Below are positions 937-7,119 of a stretch of 22,809 bases of DNA, piece by piece. How positions within the stretch are numbered: the first letter of the stretch is position 1; each line of letters starts with the position of its first letter. The translations under genes were made by a program, and so were the position numbers. Where the stretch lies: IMG/VR virus record IMGVR_UViG_3300025727_000636, positions 1 to 22,809 of that record, one strand, 5' to 3'. The stretch is from a virus. The notes beneath the pieces were generated by a model. It saw only the letters and a list, made by a program, of their open reading frames with translations, was not told where the DNA came from and searched no databases.

Positions 937-2697
937 ATGGCAAATTATGATTCAACAATATATAGTGGTTCTTTACGAGACAAAAGTTTAGAAGTTGCTA
1001 ATCTTTTTACTCAAAGTGAACATTGGATTGGTGAGCAAACCAATGAGGGTATTTTGGGTATGTATGATTGGATGGCACACGATGGTGATATATATTTAGC
1101 AGAAATAAATACTCATTTACGAATGAGAAATATAGATACTAATTGGGTAGATTTTGATGCATTAAATACTTTTTTAGGTAGTGGTGGTTATAATAAACTT
1201 TGTGTTGTTTGTGATAATACTGAAGTTGGAGCAAAACCACAAGATGGATTTTTAACACATTTGAGTTCAAGTGTATCTTCTGCTGATATAGAATATGAGA
1301 AAATATTAGTAGACCCATATCCAGTTGTTATCCCAGAAATTTCTTCATCTGATTCAAATGTTTTTGTGATGAAAATTGCATTTGATACTAATAATTCAAT
1401 CTGTACTTATTCTGGAAATAAATATTATTTTAATAATTATGTAAGCTCTTCTGGATTGTATAGTTATCAACCAAGAAAATATACAGATTTACCAGCAGAT
1501 TTTAGTAATGGAGCAGGTGTTCCAGATGTTGTGGTGAAAATACCCAATGCAGATTTAAAAAGGGGTAATTACTTTTTTGATTTGAATGATGCTACTACGG
1601 GTTCACTTTCAGATTATGTTGATTTAGGATATGTAGTGGAAGAATATATTGTTCCAGATACACTTGTAGGTTCATTACAAACAGATGTTATTCGAGGGTT
1701 GGTTTTACACACAACTGCTTCAAGTGTTTACTTAACTTCAGATTCATCTGATTTAAGAGGATACTCATGTAGAAAAACACCAGTTGTTAGTGGTAGTAAT
1801 CAGTATAAAATAAGTTATGCACATAACCCTGATACTTTTATAACGGGAACACCAATTAGAATGCATGATGGTAGTAGTAAAGATATTGAAGATATTCAAA
1901 TTGGAGATATTGTACAATCTTATAATATTCCTGGACAACCAGAAGATACAGCAGGCCCATTTCAATTAAGTAATATGTGGAGTTGGACAACTTCATCTAT
2001 AGAAAATGCTGAACTTACAAGTTCAGTTGTAACTGGATTTAGTAGTGATGAATTAGATAAATATTATCTTATTAATAGTTCATATAAAATAGGAACTGGG
2101 GCATCACTTTTTATAAAATCAGGTTCAGAGTATAGTTTTAAAATGCCTGAATATGTTGAGACTGGAATGAAAATTTTAAGTAGTTCTGAAGAGGAAATTA
2201 ATATAGATAGTATATCGTTAGTAAATGAAAAAACTACTTTTTATTCCTTAGATGTTGAAGAGATTGATACATACTTTGGTTCAGACATTCTTGTTCATAA
2301 TTTACCACCATGTTTCGTTGGTGGAACTCAAATTCAAATGCATGAAGGAGTAAAATCTATTGAAGAGGTAGAGATAGGTGATATTGTTAAATCATTTGAT
2401 GTAGGAACAAGTTCAGTTGTTGATTCTAAAGTAACAAAAACATATGTACATACTGATAGATATTATATGATTTTAAATGGAAATATTAAAACTACTTCTG
2501 TTCATCCATTTTATATTGATGGTAAGTGGGTAGAGGCTGGTGATTTATCAATTGGTGATAAAATACTTCATGTAGATGGATTGGAACATACTATTGAAAC
2601 TATTGAGTTGAGTGATGAACAGGTTACTGTATATAATTTTGAAGTAGATGGAACACATAATTATTATGCTGAGGGTTACTTAGTGCATAATAAATAA
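937..2697 (+). CDS. Large protein with two tandem C-terminal Hint domains
   Basis: This 586-residue protein has an N-terminal part (about 1-298) I do not recognise. It is rich in Ser, Asn, Asp and Tyr and predicted beta-strand, as in many phage structural or tail-associated proteins. The C-terminal half holds two Hint modules in series. The first spans about 300-455 (TFITGT ... ILVHN) and the second 459-586 (CFVGGT ... TTSVHPFY ... YLVHNK). The second keeps the nucleophile C459, the block-B His H523 and the terminal His-Asn pair H584-N585, so it should be able to cleave its own backbone. The first has Thr300 in place of Cys and lacks the block-B His. Neither HN pair is followed by Cys, Ser or Thr, so cleavage rather than splicing is expected. 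Start: ATG 937 behind AAGGAT. An oxygenase/radical SAM block follows 15 bases after the stop. The Hint call is firm; a structural role is inference. Confidence 0.8.
   Translation: MANYDSTIYSGSLRDKSLEVANLFTQSEHWIGEQTNEGILGMYDWMAHDGDIYLAEINTHLRMRNIDTNWVDFDALNTFLGSGGYNKLCVVCDNTEVGAKPQDGFLTHLSSSVSSADIEYEKILVDPYPVVIPEISSSDSNVFVMKIAFDTNNSICTYSGNKYYFNNYVSSSGLYSYQPRKYTDLPADFSNGAGVPDVVVKIPNADLKRGNYFFDLNDATTGSLSDYVDLGYVVEEYIVPDTLVGSLQTDVIRGLVLHTTASSVYLTSDSSDLRGYSCRKTPVVSGSNQYKISYAHNPDTFITGTPIRMHDGSSKDIEDIQIGDIVQSYNIPGQPEDTAGPFQLSNMWSWTTSSIENAELTSSVVTGFSSDELDKYYLINSSYKIGTGASLFIKSGSEYSFKMPEYVETGMKILSSSEEEINIDSISLVNEKTTFYSLDVEEIDTYFGSDILVHNLPPCFVGGTQIQMHEGVKSIEEVEIGDIVKSFDVGTSSVVDSKVTKTYVHTDRYYMILNGNIKTTSVHPFYIDGKWVEAGDLSIGDKILHVDGLEHTIETIELSDEQVTVYNFEVDGTHNYYAEGYLVHNK
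1834..2301 (+). other. Hint domain 1 (degenerate), residues 300-455
   Basis: Residues T300-F-I-T-G-T305 align with the start of the second Hint module (C459-F-V-G-G-T464), and both continue into an IEDIQIGDIV / IEEVEIGDIV strand. The catalytic Cys is Thr here. At the position of TTSVHPF in module 2, module 1 reads GTGASLF, without His. The closing ILVHN (H454-N455) is kept. The module therefore probably keeps the fold but has lost the N-terminal cleavage chemistry. Confidence 0.7.
2311..2694 (+). other. Hint domain 2 (intact), residues 459-586
   Basis: The module starts exactly at C459 (CFVGGT), has the block-B motif TTSVHPFY with H523, the WVEAGDLSIGDKI strand, and ends YNFEVDGTHNYYAEG-YLVHNK. 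H584-N585 is followed only by Lys and the stop codon, so Asn cyclisation would trim one residue. Thioester chemistry at C459 could instead release or ligate the preceding 458 residues. Confidence 0.75.
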
Positions 2698-2712: not shown

Positions 2713-3228
2713 ATGGTTTTAAATAAAAAAATTCTATATGTGAATGGTTGTAGTTGGGTTGAGGGAGATGAACTTAAATTTAAAAAGAAATCGAGATTTA
2801 GTCATTTATTATCAGATGAATTAAATTTAAAAGAAATAAATTTGGCAATATGTGGTTGTAGTAATGAGACAATCATAGTTAATACTATGAAGTGGATTTA
2901 TAAGAATCAAAAACTTCTTAATGAAACGATATTTATTGTAGGATTTACTGCTGAAAGTCGTTCTAAATATGATTGGGAAATGTATGATATAATTTTATTT
3001 CAGGCATTTTTACAATCACTTGGAGTAGAACACATATTATTTTTTTCATTTGGTAAAACACAAAAAGATTTAAATATTAATAATTTTACAGACAAAGCTT
3101 TTTATGAGGTTATAACACAAGATAAAAATAGTTTAGATGAGGTTTTTTGTGAAAATGGACATCCAAATGAAAAAGGACATAGAATTTTTGCAGATTATTT
3201 AAAAGGATGGATAGATGAATCAGAATAA
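2713..3228 (+). CDS. SGNH/GDSL-like hydrolase
   Basis: This 171-residue protein shows the layout of the SGNH hydrolase fold. A first strand ends in VNGCSW, where S14 takes the place of the GDSx nucleophile. GCSNETI follows at the block-II position (Gly/Asn oxyanion region). A C-terminal GHPNEKGHRIFADYL matches block V, with H150 followed by P151-N152 as in D-x-x-H-P-N; the usual Asp is Glu (E147). Family members are esterases, lipases or carbohydrate O-acyl-esterases; the substrate here cannot be told. It lies just after the Hint gene and overlaps the first oxygenase gene by 14 bases, so it is probably part of the same modification block. O-deacylation of a glycan is one reasonable guess. There is no signal peptide, so it should act in the cytoplasm or on the virion. 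Confidence 0.65.
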   Translation: MVLNKKILYVNGCSWVEGDELKFKKKSRFSHLLSDELNLKEINLAICGCSNETIIVNTMKWIYKNQKLLNETIFIVGFTAESRSKYDWEMYDIILFQAFLQSLGVEHILFFSFGKTQKDLNINNFTDKAFYEVITQDKNSLDEVFCENGHPNEKGHRIFADYLKGWIDESE

Positions 3229-3817
3229 TAATTGGCAGTGGTATATGAGTAAACCAGATTTTCTCACAAATGATGAGTGTGATGAGTTGGTTGAAAGAAT
3301 AAAGAATACCGAAAAAAGTGAACAAGGTTGTTTAGATGACCACTTTGGTGATGATCACAATACAGATTTTAGAGATGTTACAGAATGGTATTTACACAAA
3401 GATATGAGAGATTATGTTGTAGGGGATTATAGTTCATTACAACAGAAATTATTTATTGCGGCTAAGATGTGTAATCATTTATCTTGGAATCTTCATATAC
3501 AAGAACCAGAAAATAATATAAAATTGATTGAATATAAATCAGATAATTTTTACACATGGCATTCAGATTTTAATAATGGTAAGAGTTCAAGAAGAAAATT
3601 AGTTACAATACTTCAATTATCAGCTCCAAGCGAATATGAAGGTGGTTCTACACAATTAGCAATACAAGACCCAAAGACTTTAGAATTTTATGAAATGCCA
3701 AAAGAAAAAGGAACATTATTAATATTTTGTCCATTGTTATTTCACAGAGTTACACCAGTTACAAGTGGTGTTAGATATTCATTACAAGAATTTATAATAG
3801 GAAATACTTTTGTATAA
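3215..3817 (+). CDS. 2OG-Fe(II) dioxygenase (copy 1 of 3)
   Basis: This 200-residue protein has the double-stranded beta-helix signature of 2-oxoglutarate/Fe(II) oxygenases of the prolyl-4-hydroxylase-like type. The iron ligands are H116 and D118 (YTWHSDF) and H177 (FHRVTP), and R187 (GVRYSL) would bind the 2-oxoglutarate carboxylate. The N-terminus has the usual FLTNDECDELVERI helix. It would hydroxylate a protein, nucleotide or small molecule using O2; the substrate is unknown. ATG 3215 lies inside the end of the SGNH gene, and its own end supplies the TTG start of the next oxygenase, so the three genes are coupled. It is a divergent paralogue of the genes at 3810 and 6550. The family call is strong. 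Confidence 0.88.
   Translation: MNQNNNWQWYMSKPDFLTNDECDELVERIKNTEKSEQGCLDDHFGDDHNTDFRDVTEWYLHKDMRDYVVGDYSSLQQKLFIAAKMCNHLSWNLHIQEPENNIKLIEYKSDNFYTWHSDFNNGKSSRRKLVTILQLSAPSEYEGGSTQLAIQDPKTLEFYEMPKEKGTLLIFCPLLFHRVTPVTSGVRYSLQEFIIGNTFV
3799..3812 (+). promoter_or_regulatory. Ribosome binding site and TTG start of oxygenase copy 2
   Basis: AGGA at 3799-3802 lies 7 bases before TTG 3810-3812, which opens the next frame inside the last codons of the preceding gene (stop TAA 3815-3817). No ATG occurs in the new frame until residue 57, in the middle of the fold, so this site decides for TTG. Confidence 0.6.
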
Positions 3818-4400
3818 ACCAATAGATATAGATACTCTTAAAAAAAATCCATCATTTAGATGGTGGTTAACAAGAGATAATTTCTTTACTGAAGATGAAT
3901 GTAATGAAGTACGAAAATATATTGATAATAATGCAAAACCAAAAGTAGGTTCGTATTCTATTGTTGAAGAACAACCAATGATGGACGATGAGATTTGTAA
4001 GTTAAACATTGCTGATATTGAAGAACAAAAATATTTAGATAAAATTTGGAGTTTGATTGAAATAGCCAACACGACATCTTTCAAATATAATATTTCAGGT
4101 ATATATAAAAATAAACTTATGGGGCATAGATATGATGGAGAGGACTGGTATACACCACATTCAGATTTCCATCCCATTGATCCTTTTACTGTAGTTAAGT
4201 TAACTATAATTATATTTTTAAGTAATGAGGGAGTGGATTATCAAGGTGGTGAATTTAAGTTTTTCGATGGTACACACATTGAATCAAGAAAGGGCAGGGC
4301 TTTAATATTTCCATCATTTTATGGACATGAAGTAAAACCAATTACAAATGGACATAGATATTCTTTAGTTACTTGGGCTGTAGGAGATACTTTTGTGTGA
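3810..4400 (+). CDS. 2OG-Fe(II) dioxygenase (copy 2 of 3), TTG start
   Basis: This 196-residue oxygenase has iron ligands H117 and D119 (YTPHSDF) and H173 (YGHEVKP), with R183 (GHRYSL) for 2-oxoglutarate. It shares with copy 1 the N-terminal FFTEDECNEV helix, the GGEF-type strand before the distal ligand (YQGGEFKF against YEGGSTQL) and the C-terminal G-[DN]-T-F-V ending. The TTG start overlaps the previous gene by 8 bases. Its own TGA overlaps the ATG of the radical SAM gene (TGATG), a classic coupling junction. A tandem duplication with copy 1 is the likely origin. The substrate is unknown; the neighbouring radical SAM enzyme suggests they act on the same product. Confidence 0.87.
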   Translation: MYKPIDIDTLKKNPSFRWWLTRDNFFTEDECNEVRKYIDNNAKPKVGSYSIVEEQPMMDDEICKLNIADIEEQKYLDKIWSLIEIANTTSFKYNISGIYKNKLMGHRYDGEDWYTPHSDFHPIDPFTVVKLTIIIFLSNEGVDYQGGEFKFFDGTHIESRKGRALIFPSFYGHEVKPITNGHRYSLVTWAVGDTFV

Positions 4401-6550
4401 TGAAAAAAGAAGATTTAAAAATAGCATTATGTATTTGTCCACAATGGTCTATAGCAACACCTTCATTTGCATTAGGTAGTTTAAATACAGCCTTAACGGA
4501 GGCAGGTTTTAATTCAACTCAATATGATATTAATATGATGAGTTCATTGTATTTAAAAAATAATCATAAAGAGTATTTCAAAAAATGGACACAAGATAAT
4601 CCCTGGAGTACAAAACAAGTTTTTTGGGAAGAAATTGTTCCATTGTTTCAAGAATTTTGGTTTGATATAATAAAAGAATTATCGGAATATGATGTAGTTA
4701 GTTTTACTACATATTCATCAAACATCATGACAACAGATTATCTTGCTCGTTATTTAAGACAAATTAATCCCAATATACATATATGGTATGGTGGTCCATT
4801 TTGTTGGTATGGTGAAAATGGTGGGTTAGTTGAAAGTTCTAAAAAATTCCAAACACAGGAAGGATATGGAGATATTCCAGGAAAAGGAAAGTATAGAGAA
4901 TTTATTGACATAGGTTGTGGTACAAATGAAGGAGAGAAAACCATTGTAGATTTAGCAACTGATTTAATAGAAACTGGAAGTTATGAAAATACAAGTGGAA
5001 TTTGGAAGTGGGATAAGTTAAGACCATCATTTGCAACGGCATTACTACCAGGTCGTAGTGGTAGAACCCCAGTTTATACTGGCAATTTACAGATAATGAA
5101 TTTGAATACTTTAAGTACACCAACTTGGAGTGAAGAAGTTTTAAAAGGTTATACTGAAATTAGAAAAGAAGATAAAACATCAGATTTTGGCCCAAAGTTG
5201 ACAGTACCAATTCAAGGTTCGAGAGGATGTACTTTTAAATGTACTTTTTGTAGTGAGACTCGATTGTATAGATACAGAAGTCCTGAAAAGTTAATTGAAG
5301 ATATAACAAAATTAAATAAAGAATATGGAGTTGAAAATTTTTGGTTTACAGATTCATTGATAAATGGTTCAATAAGTAATTATAAAAAATTTGTTGATGT
5401 ATTGAATGACTTAATTGACAAGGGAGAATTACCAAAAATAAGATACGGTGGTTATTTTAGAACTCATAAAAAAATGAATGAGAAGTTTTTAGATGAATCA
5501 AGAAAATCTGGATTGGTTTATATGAATATTGGAGTAGAGAATGGAGTTCCAAAAACTTTAGCACTAATGGAAAAGAACCAAACTCCTGATGTTATTAAAA
5601 TGTATTTAGATGCAGTTACAAAAGATGATAAAATTGCATTTGATGCGGGATGGATACCTGGATATCCAAGAGAAACTACTGTTGATTTTATAAGTAGTTT
5701 AAAGTTTTTGTTTGATACTAAACATAATTTTAAATGTGATGTTGAAAAATCTGGTAGAATTAATTTAATGAAAGGTACAGATGCCTTAGTGGATACACCA
5801 CTTGATACAGAAAGAGATGTTTTTGATATCTCAAAGGATGAAAATTTACTTAAAAATTGGATAAGTAATGATTATAGAAATAACATTTTTAGTAGACATT
5901 TAAGAGCACATTTAACAGATTTATTCTTGAATATTTTTAAAATAAATCAAAGAGGATTGGTTAAAGATGAAGATATGTCAAAACCAATTGGTGAGGCTCA
6001 AGATGAAACTATGCCAAAGGCTCAATCATGGGCAATGGATACATCATTTTATAATTTTCAAAGTGATGGAAGTAACAGTAATGTTTCAGATGATAGTATT
6101 TTTAAAAACTCTTTTTTAACACCATCATCAGGAGAATCTTCTTTTAAAGAAATTTTAATAAATTCATTAATTGATGAAGTTAAAGGATTTGTATGGTTGA
6201 TATATAGTTTACAAAAGAATGTTAATTTAGAATTTGGTATGACAGATAATTTTAAAGTATTTAATTTAAAGGACACTTCGTTTATTATTAATATTAATTT
6301 TGAAACCAAACCAAATTCAGATTTTAATTTGAAAGTAGATTTTAAAATTAATGTAGATGAAGAAGATAGAAAGTATTTAAATATTAAAAATGTGAATGAA
6401 TTAGAATTGGATGAAACATTTGAAATAAGTGGTAATTTTGATAGGGATTATTCTGATAATAAAGTTGTTAACGATTTATATATGGATTCACTTAATGTAG
6501 ATAAATATAAAATAAATATAGCAAGAACTGCAACGACTGGAAGATATTAA
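4400..6550 (+). CDS. B12-binding-type radical SAM protein
   Basis: This is a 716-residue protein. Residues 1 to about 190 look like a cobalamin-binding Rossmann domain: SFALGSLNTALTEAGF, then YDVVSFTTYSSN, WYGGPF, and GCGTNEGEKTIVDL in the place of the usual GEGE loop. The radical SAM barrel follows, with the [4Fe-4S] cysteines C277, C281 and C284 (GCTFKCTFC, CX3CX2C) and the strands NFWFTDSLING and GLVYMNIGVENG. The last 230 or so residues are Asn/Asp/Ser-rich and beta-like and match nothing I know. The chemistry would be radical modification, often methylation, of an unactivated carbon. I place the start at ATG 4400, where it overlaps the TGA of oxygenase copy 2; a TTG at 4373 would run 27 bases into that gene. 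TAATG at 6548-6552 links it to oxygenase copy 3. The substrate is unknown. Confidence 0.85.
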   Translation: MKKEDLKIALCICPQWSIATPSFALGSLNTALTEAGFNSTQYDINMMSSLYLKNNHKEYFKKWTQDNPWSTKQVFWEEIVPLFQEFWFDIIKELSEYDVVSFTTYSSNIMTTDYLARYLRQINPNIHIWYGGPFCWYGENGGLVESSKKFQTQEGYGDIPGKGKYREFIDIGCGTNEGEKTIVDLATDLIETGSYENTSGIWKWDKLRPSFATALLPGRSGRTPVYTGNLQIMNLNTLSTPTWSEEVLKGYTEIRKEDKTSDFGPKLTVPIQGSRGCTFKCTFCSETRLYRYRSPEKLIEDITKLNKEYGVENFWFTDSLINGSISNYKKFVDVLNDLIDKGELPKIRYGGYFRTHKKMNEKFLDESRKSGLVYMNIGVENGVPKTLALMEKNQTPDVIKMYLDAVTKDDKIAFDAGWIPGYPRETTVDFISSLKFLFDTKHNFKCDVEKSGRINLMKGTDALVDTPLDTERDVFDISKDENLLKNWISNDYRNNIFSRHLRAHLTDLFLNIFKINQRGLVKDEDMSKPIGEAQDETMPKAQSWAMDTSFYNFQSDGSNSNVSDDSIFKNSFLTPSSGESSFKEILINSLIDEVKGFVWLIYSLQKNVNLEFGMTDNFKVFNLKDTSFIININFETKPNSDFNLKVDFKINVDEEDRKYLNIKNVNELELDETFEISGNFDRDYSDNKVVNDLYMDSLNVDKYKINIARTATTGRY

Positions 6551-7119
6551 TGATTACTAATGATAAATTTCAGTTTGTTATTCATAGAGATAATTTTCTA
6601 TCAGAAAGTCAATGTATAGAGTTAATTGAATATTTTGAAAGTAAAGAATCAAAAGATTCAGAACTTGCTGGAACTTATGATAAAAATTTACTTAATAAAG
6701 AAGTTCGTAATACAAGAGAACTTGTACTTGATGATGAAAAATTAACTAATAAATTAAAAATGGTTTTTGAATTGGCAAATGTTTCCACATACAATTATGA
6801 TATTAAAGAAATGGAAGAAGTTAAGTTATTAAAATATACACAAGGTGGTAGATACAAATGGCATACTGATAGTGGAGCAAAAGAAATTTCTACACGAAAA
6901 TTAACTGCTATTGTTCAGTTGAGTGATGGAAATAGTTATGATGGTGGAGATTTAGAATTTGGAATTACTAATGAAACTGGAGAAAGTAATTATACCGCTA
7001 CAAGAACACGAGGTAGTATAATTATATTTCCTGCATTTCTATCACATAGAATAACACCAATTACAAATGGAATACGATATTCACTAATTACATGGATGAA
7101 TGGTGATACTTGGAAATAA
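6550..7119 (+). CDS. 2OG-Fe(II) dioxygenase (copy 3 of 3)
   Basis: This 189-residue oxygenase has iron ligands H105 and D107 (YKWHTDS) and H166 (SHRITPITNG), with R176 (GIRYSL) as the 2-oxoglutarate-binding Arg. It shares the FLSESQCIELIEYF N-terminal helix, the YDGGDLEF strand and the GDTWK ending with the other two copies; the RITPITNG-RYSL block is especially close to theirs. It starts at ATG 6550, overlapping the radical SAM stop (TAATG), so it belongs to the same transcript and is probably made in similar amount. A 51-base gap follows, which ends the block. The reaction is hydroxylation or another oxidation coupled to 2-oxoglutarate decarboxylation; the substrate is unknown. Confidence 0.88.
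   Translation: MITNDKFQFVIHRDNFLSESQCIELIEYFESKESKDSELAGTYDKNLLNKEVRNTRELVLDDEKLTNKLKMVFELANVSTYNYDIKEMEEVKLLKYTQGGRYKWHTDSGAKEISTRKLTAIVQLSDGNSYDGGDLEFGITNETGESNYTATRTRGSIIIFPAFLSHRITPITNGIRYSLITWMNGDTWK

Follow-up and report, generated by a model that had tools for sequence, protein, structure and literature searches.

A phage protein with an ATP-grasp-like domain, a predicted C-cleavage-only Hint module and an exchangeable Hint cassette

Introduction

Why should a phage protein end in two successive Hint modules, one complete and the other without part of the catalytic residues, and what kind of protein do they follow? The question is raised by a gene in the IMG/VR virus record IMGVR_UViG_3300025727_000636, of which positions 1 to 22,809 were analyzed (22,809 nucleotides, hereafter the window). 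The ORF at 937-2697 (+) is translated into a 586 aa protein, with the codon of residue 300 starting at 1834 and that of residue 586 ending at 2694; its C-terminal end consists of two Hint modules separated by LPP. The coordinates and residues given in the original prediction agree with this translation, and the LVHN end shared by the modules and the LPP linker are both read directly from it. The ATP-grasp likeness of the N-terminal domain and the cassette nature of module 2 had not been caught there. The architecture, an ATP-grasp-like domain followed by a pseudo-Hint and an intact Hint, is conserved and built from known kinds of parts; as far as the present searches reach it has not been described, and in the open literature searched, "ATP-grasp" and "Hint domain" never occurred together in one paper. 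Foremost among the new points is the maintained half-Hint adjoining an ATP-grasp-like domain. The features are as follows.

937..1818, + strand: N-terminal domain (residues 1-294), ATP-grasp peptide-ligase-like fold (AlphaFold model, structure matches)
1066..1110, + strand: invariant D44...E56-x-N58 motif (alignment 52/52; hhalign to YgiC)
1828..2301, + strand: module 1, pseudo-Hint (residues 298-455) without Cys1 and TxxH, with D444/H454/N455 kept (structure match, conservation, hhalign)
2296..2301, + strand: His454-Asn455 of module 1, predicted to carry out C-cleavage by Asn cyclisation (conservation in relatives)
2302..2310, + strand: linker LPP, residues 456-458 (direct reading)
2311..2691, + strand: module 2, intact type-A BIL-like Hint with C459, T520xxH523 and H584-N585 (Pfam PT-HINT; conservation)
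2310..2697, + strand: exchangeable cassette, DNA extent (identity with Hints on unrelated phage genes)
2692..2697, + strand: +1 residue Lys586 and stop codon (K/R at +1 in 39/47 module-2 representatives)

Fold and conservation of module 1

In Hint domains, Cys1 and the TxxH motif bring about the N-side acyl shift, and the terminal His-Asn together with block F brings about Asn cyclisation. Module 1 has Thr300 at the Cys1 position and no TxxH, as had been predicted; there is no Cys anywhere in residues 298-455, and the WCT motif with a block F Cys that marks class 3 inteins is absent. When scanned alone it gave sub-threshold Pfam Hint matches (Hom_end_hint, 3.6e-4; Intein_splicing, 1e-3), and the profile of alignment A5 found only weak Hint matches, to BIL2, among PDB sequences. 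Its relation to module 2 is detectable by BLASTP (30% identity, E 6e-16) and by a Smith-Waterman score of 148, compared with 31.5 ± 5.5 (maximum 63) in 2000 shuffles. In an AlphaFold model of the N-domain with module 1, built on a 52-sequence alignment (pLDDT 72.8 overall, about 80 over module 1), residues 293-454 match BIL, intein and Hedgehog folds, including Tetrahymena BIL2 6y75 (VIA Z 13.7, rmsd 2.1, 125 aligned), the BIL domain 2lwy (Z 12.4) and Hedgehog 1at0 (Z 11.3). Structure prediction, proposed earlier as a check, thus places a Hint fold in residues 300-455; both modules have Hint folds, module 1 by these matches and module 2 by PT-HINT, and module 1 is, as modelled, a member of the Hint superfamily. 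The closest fold, BIL2 of Tetrahymena BUBL (6y75/6tmm), comes from a locus with several BIL domains and differs from module 1, in which both N-side residues are missing. BUBL BILs are active and separate ubiquitin-like domains.

Relatives were collected by viral contig scans; some of the loci are nearly identical, others are closely related, and a large family is more distant. An HMM search of the collected contigs yielded 133 loci with N-domain and module 1, condensed to 50 representatives from uncultured phages, so that related double-Hint phage proteins, whose search had been suggested, are available as about 50 divergent representatives of the same architecture. No family member was found in bacterial genomes by a pattern-based scan, and none in isolate phage records. 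The family falls into two clades, in both of which the N-domain and module 1 are followed, as a rule, by one to three intact Hints. The second clade (MKGTxFSADF...LRLLELNTDT) is the larger and is found on contigs of as much as 326 kb; contigs of window-clade relatives carry T4-type B-family polymerase, clamp and clamp-loader genes nearby (ORFs read by eye).

In the 52-sequence alignment, whose members range down to some 20% identity, 11 of the 455 positions never vary; of these, only S328, S363 and N455 lie within module 1. Asn455 is present in 52/52, His454 in 50/52 (the other two have Ser or Tyr) and Asp444, which occupies the place of the block F His, in 51/52. The Cys1 position is occupied by G in 41, T in 5, S in 3, A in 2 and another residue in one; the TxxH motif is left in none of the 52 aligned sequences, and no Cys was seen at position 1 in the 50 representatives read by eye. 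The original prediction regarded module 1 as a decaying relic, a view that has to be given up because the same loss is found family-wide (52/52) while Asn455, His454 and Asp444 are kept; recent decay is ruled out by this pattern and by dN/dS values of 0.28-0.45 among close relatives. Its suggestion that Asn455 could still cyclise and cut gains from the retention of the same three residues, and the pattern of kept and lost residues, read with Hint chemistry, suggests a module capable of C-cleavage only.

The Asn of module 1 is kept even in proteins without module 2, which end in HNLPPK and a stop codon (L046-L050) or in HN and 5-7 further residues (L264-266). These forms are nested inside module-2-bearing clades in a FastTree tree and therefore look like losses. 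Linkers in relatives include LPP, IPP, IPPL, AP and SP, or are longer or missing. An HN-C junction, with the module 1 Asn directly before Cys1 of module 2, occurs in L247, L251, L225, L233, L246, L226 and L239, where two catalytic centres would share one peptide bond.

A diverged duplicate is not supported for the pair. In hhalign comparisons made for the two clades, module 1 matched long-insert Hints (phage NCTB, Erwinia phage virion proteins and L052-L069) at 1e-34 and 9e-20, and module 2 profiles more weakly, at 7e-21 and 3e-12. Because its profile is nearer to the long-insert Hints, the modules are not a simple duplicate, and a recent tandem duplication is ruled out by their membership in different Hint subfamilies. 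The long-insert phage Hints (NCTB "large intein domain protein", Erwinia/Yersinia phage virion proteins, L052-L061; profile E 1e-34) share with module 1 an insert after block A and a DVEE.DTY block, but they keep Cys1 and TxxH and are attached to other N-terminal parts.

Module 2 and its exchange among phage genes

Module 2 is matched by Pfam PT-HINT (E 9.7e-24 in a whole-protein scan, 1.8e-22 for the module alone), and its closest PDB sequence is the Clostridium thermocellum BIL domain 2lwy (E 4e-18). The prediction of a complete Hint holds, with C459, T520-S-V-H523 and H584-N585 all present; the Hint is where it was placed (459-586), although the catalytic unit is 459-585 and Lys586 is the +1 residue, so that the "C-extein" is a single Lys. 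Among 47 module-2 representatives, Cys is kept in 47/47, TxxH in 46/47 and HN in 47/47, and dN/dS of module 2 is 0.03-0.10. The +1 residue is K or R in 39 of the 47 and C, S or T in none. Pro at -1 usually slows the N-S shift in inteins, and its presence in 26 of the 47 calls for caution on the N-side step of module 2.

Type-A bacterial intein-like (BIL) domains were reportedly set out by Amitai in 2003. Module 2 has all their marks, namely Cys1, TxxH, a terminal HN and no C/S/T at +1, and it resembles the type-A BIL 2lwy of C. thermocellum in its Hint fold, non-nucleophilic +1 residue and C-terminal position on variable proteins. What sets it apart from type-A BILs is that it follows a conserved pseudo-Hint as part of a tandem, that the protein carrying both is ATP-grasp-like, and that it moves among phage genes as a cassette with sharp borders. 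It lacks the +1 nucleophile and real C-extein of canonical inteins, since only Lys and the stop codon follow, and with one residue after it there is no Hedgehog Hog sterol-recognition region. BIL domains without a +1 nucleophile give mostly cleaved products (PMC7664689, PMC7765530).

The DNA of module 2 is 82-85% identical over 387 nt to Hints on unrelated phage genes (L124/L029, L128 and L129) and 83% identical over 424 nt, about 35 nt beyond the stop, to L125-127. The similarity sets in with the Cys codon or the base preceding it and extends to the Lys codon or stop; upstream there is none. In one orthologue, L177, the corresponding junction is followed by another Hint (33% identity), and module 2 is missing from some orthologues. 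Module 2 is thus, by these alignments, an exchangeable cassette, for which transfer and gene conversion between paralogous cassettes are both possible.

The original prediction called tandem Hints unusual, which fails for these phages, since 23 of 82 representative Hint ORFs have two or more HMM segments and 11 have three or four, a count in which a few are one Hint split by an insert; arrays of 2-4 are common in related phage contigs. A literature search on tandem Hints returned nothing relevant. Phage proteins with three or four successive Hint segments, connected through HN-K-C or HN-[RK]-[AF]-C, are encoded in L154:2-5791, L070, L202, L208 and L210. Hints are also found inside large phage structural-type proteins (L031:6001-6438 and L142:4001-4438; HNRDPVAQSF / HNRSHSDPLAQTF), and with R at +1 these should cleave rather than splice.

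The N-terminal domain

No Pfam or PHROG family covers the N-domain in searches with the window protein and representatives, and the Pfam GSP_synth HMM matches neither. A full-length AlphaFold model with an 11-row alignment left the domain unfolded (pLDDT 46.6). In the model built on 52 sequences, residues 1-294 match glutathione synthetases at VIA Z 9.4-10.6; the best of these, 1m0t, aligns 249 residues at Z 10.6 and rmsd 4.9, to be read with the moderate confidence of the N-domain model. Foldseek gave E 7e-6 for YgiC 7uk8 and 2e-4 for E. coli GspSA. D44, E56 and N58 are invariant (52/52) and belong to a D-F-x-x-D...LxExNxDT motif that pairs with DLAW...LLENNAD of YgiC (hhalign, E 8e-4, a single comparison). 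They align with D318/E330/N332 of GspSA (numbering computed from the GspSA sequence), which we take to be Mg ligands. Lys201 is kept as K in 49 and R in 3 of the 52, and Lys215 is replaced by Asp in the window clade, where the predicted ligase may therefore be weakened.

The N-domain thus resembles, as modelled, the ATP-grasp peptide ligases YgiC, GspS and glutathione synthetase, and it may be a ligase itself. It shares with YgiC, glutathionylspermidine synthetase and glutathione synthetase the fold over residues 1-294 and a D-E-N triad with matching spacing, but differs in giving no Pfam match, in a shortened loop between the two lysines, in the fusion to Hints and, in the window clade, in the Asp at Lys215.

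A standalone N-domain paralogue of 197 aa (25% identity, EINTN motif) without Hints lies close upstream of the Hint protein in L013 (3329-3919). Synonymous divergence between the window and L013 is 0.69 in the N-domain (937-1827) and 0.27-0.33 in the Hint modules (1828-2691), a contrast that hints at recombination within the gene.

Proposed processing and its alternatives

We favor, with a probability of roughly 0.55, a phage ATP-grasp-like protein followed by a C-cleavage-only Hint (module 1) and a self-cleaving, type-A BIL-like module 2, with a putative ligase activity and predicted chemical steps. This explanation starts from what was computed, namely the architecture, the folds, the conserved and lost residues, and the exchange and loss of the cassette. 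In module 2, an N-S acyl shift would take place at Cys459 and Asn585 could cyclise; with Lys at +1 splicing by the normal route is not expected, and the module would mainly cleave itself off or transfer residue 458 to an external nucleophile. Module 1, having lost its N-side chemistry, would cut only after Asn455, by means of Asp444, His454 and Asn455. Both cuts would leave nearly the same mature product, the ATP-grasp domain with module 1 (1-455 or 1-458). Against this explanation, the conserved HN could be structural and hold the junction to the next module, and the predicted cut in module-1-only proteins would release no more than 4-7 residues, which hardly explains its retention.

A tentative alternative takes up the first of these objections and regards module 1 as a catalytically dead structural or binding domain, in which His-Asn is needed for folding or for displaying the following Hint, module 2 alone being reactive. 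Two of the three catalytic sites of module 1 are indeed gone, and the non-catalytic S328 and S363 are as invariant as Asn455, but the positions retained are just the three on which the Asn-cyclisation half reaction depends, and the Asn is invariant even without a following module. Hog domains, which perform no Asn cyclisation, are not known to need a terminal HN, which also speaks against a purely structural role.

It is rather unlikely that, as in Hedgehog, the thioester of module 2 passes the N-terminal part on to an external amine or thiol and the ATP-grasp domain acts as cargo or partner. The conserved Cys and TxxH and the missing +1 nucleophile would fit aminolysis, and the N-domain fold is ligase-like and near that of polyamine-peptide ligases, but such a transfer has no known substrate and no sterol-type region follows module 2. 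Least of all do we expect module 2 to be a selfish, intein-like insertion whose excision restores the protein, with the module-free orthologues as the empty site: these end in HNLPP-K-stop where the window protein reads HNLPP-C...HN-K-stop, and the cassette borders coincide with the Cys and Lys-stop codons, but there is no C/S/T at +1 and no homing endonuclease, the C-extein is one Lys, the module-free forms look like losses by their nesting, and the shared Lys may be a coincidence, as these cassettes usually end in HNK.

The favored reading, a C-cleavage-only module 1 before a self-cleaving module 2, may extend to the family as a whole, although the following is a good deal less certain: a large phage family could couple autoprocessing and amide ligation in one polypeptide, by fusing an ATP-grasp ligase-like domain to a Hint reduced to an Asn-cyclising C-cleavage device and then to exchangeable Hint cassettes. 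If so, strictly kept half-chemistry Hints would illustrate the splitting of an autoprocessing domain into partial reactions and supply C-cleavage-only modules of natural origin. Through the ATP-grasp link and the sharply defined exchange of the cassette, the use of BIL-like domains by phages becomes open to testing.

Gene neighborhood

The neighbors of the gene in the window and in relatives include GNAT, 2OG-Fe(II) oxygenase, SGNH-like, radical SAM, carbamoyltransferase and SET genes. A virion or tail protein is unsupported for the window protein by its neighbor genes; Hints of the module 1 type do occur on annotated virion proteins elsewhere. Within 3215-7119 of the window lie three P4H-like 2OG-Fe(II) oxygenase paralogues (3215-3817, 3810-4400 and 6550-7119), and the Hint gene is also accompanied by one SGNH-like and one radical SAM gene. 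The distant clade is likewise flanked by 2OG oxygenases.
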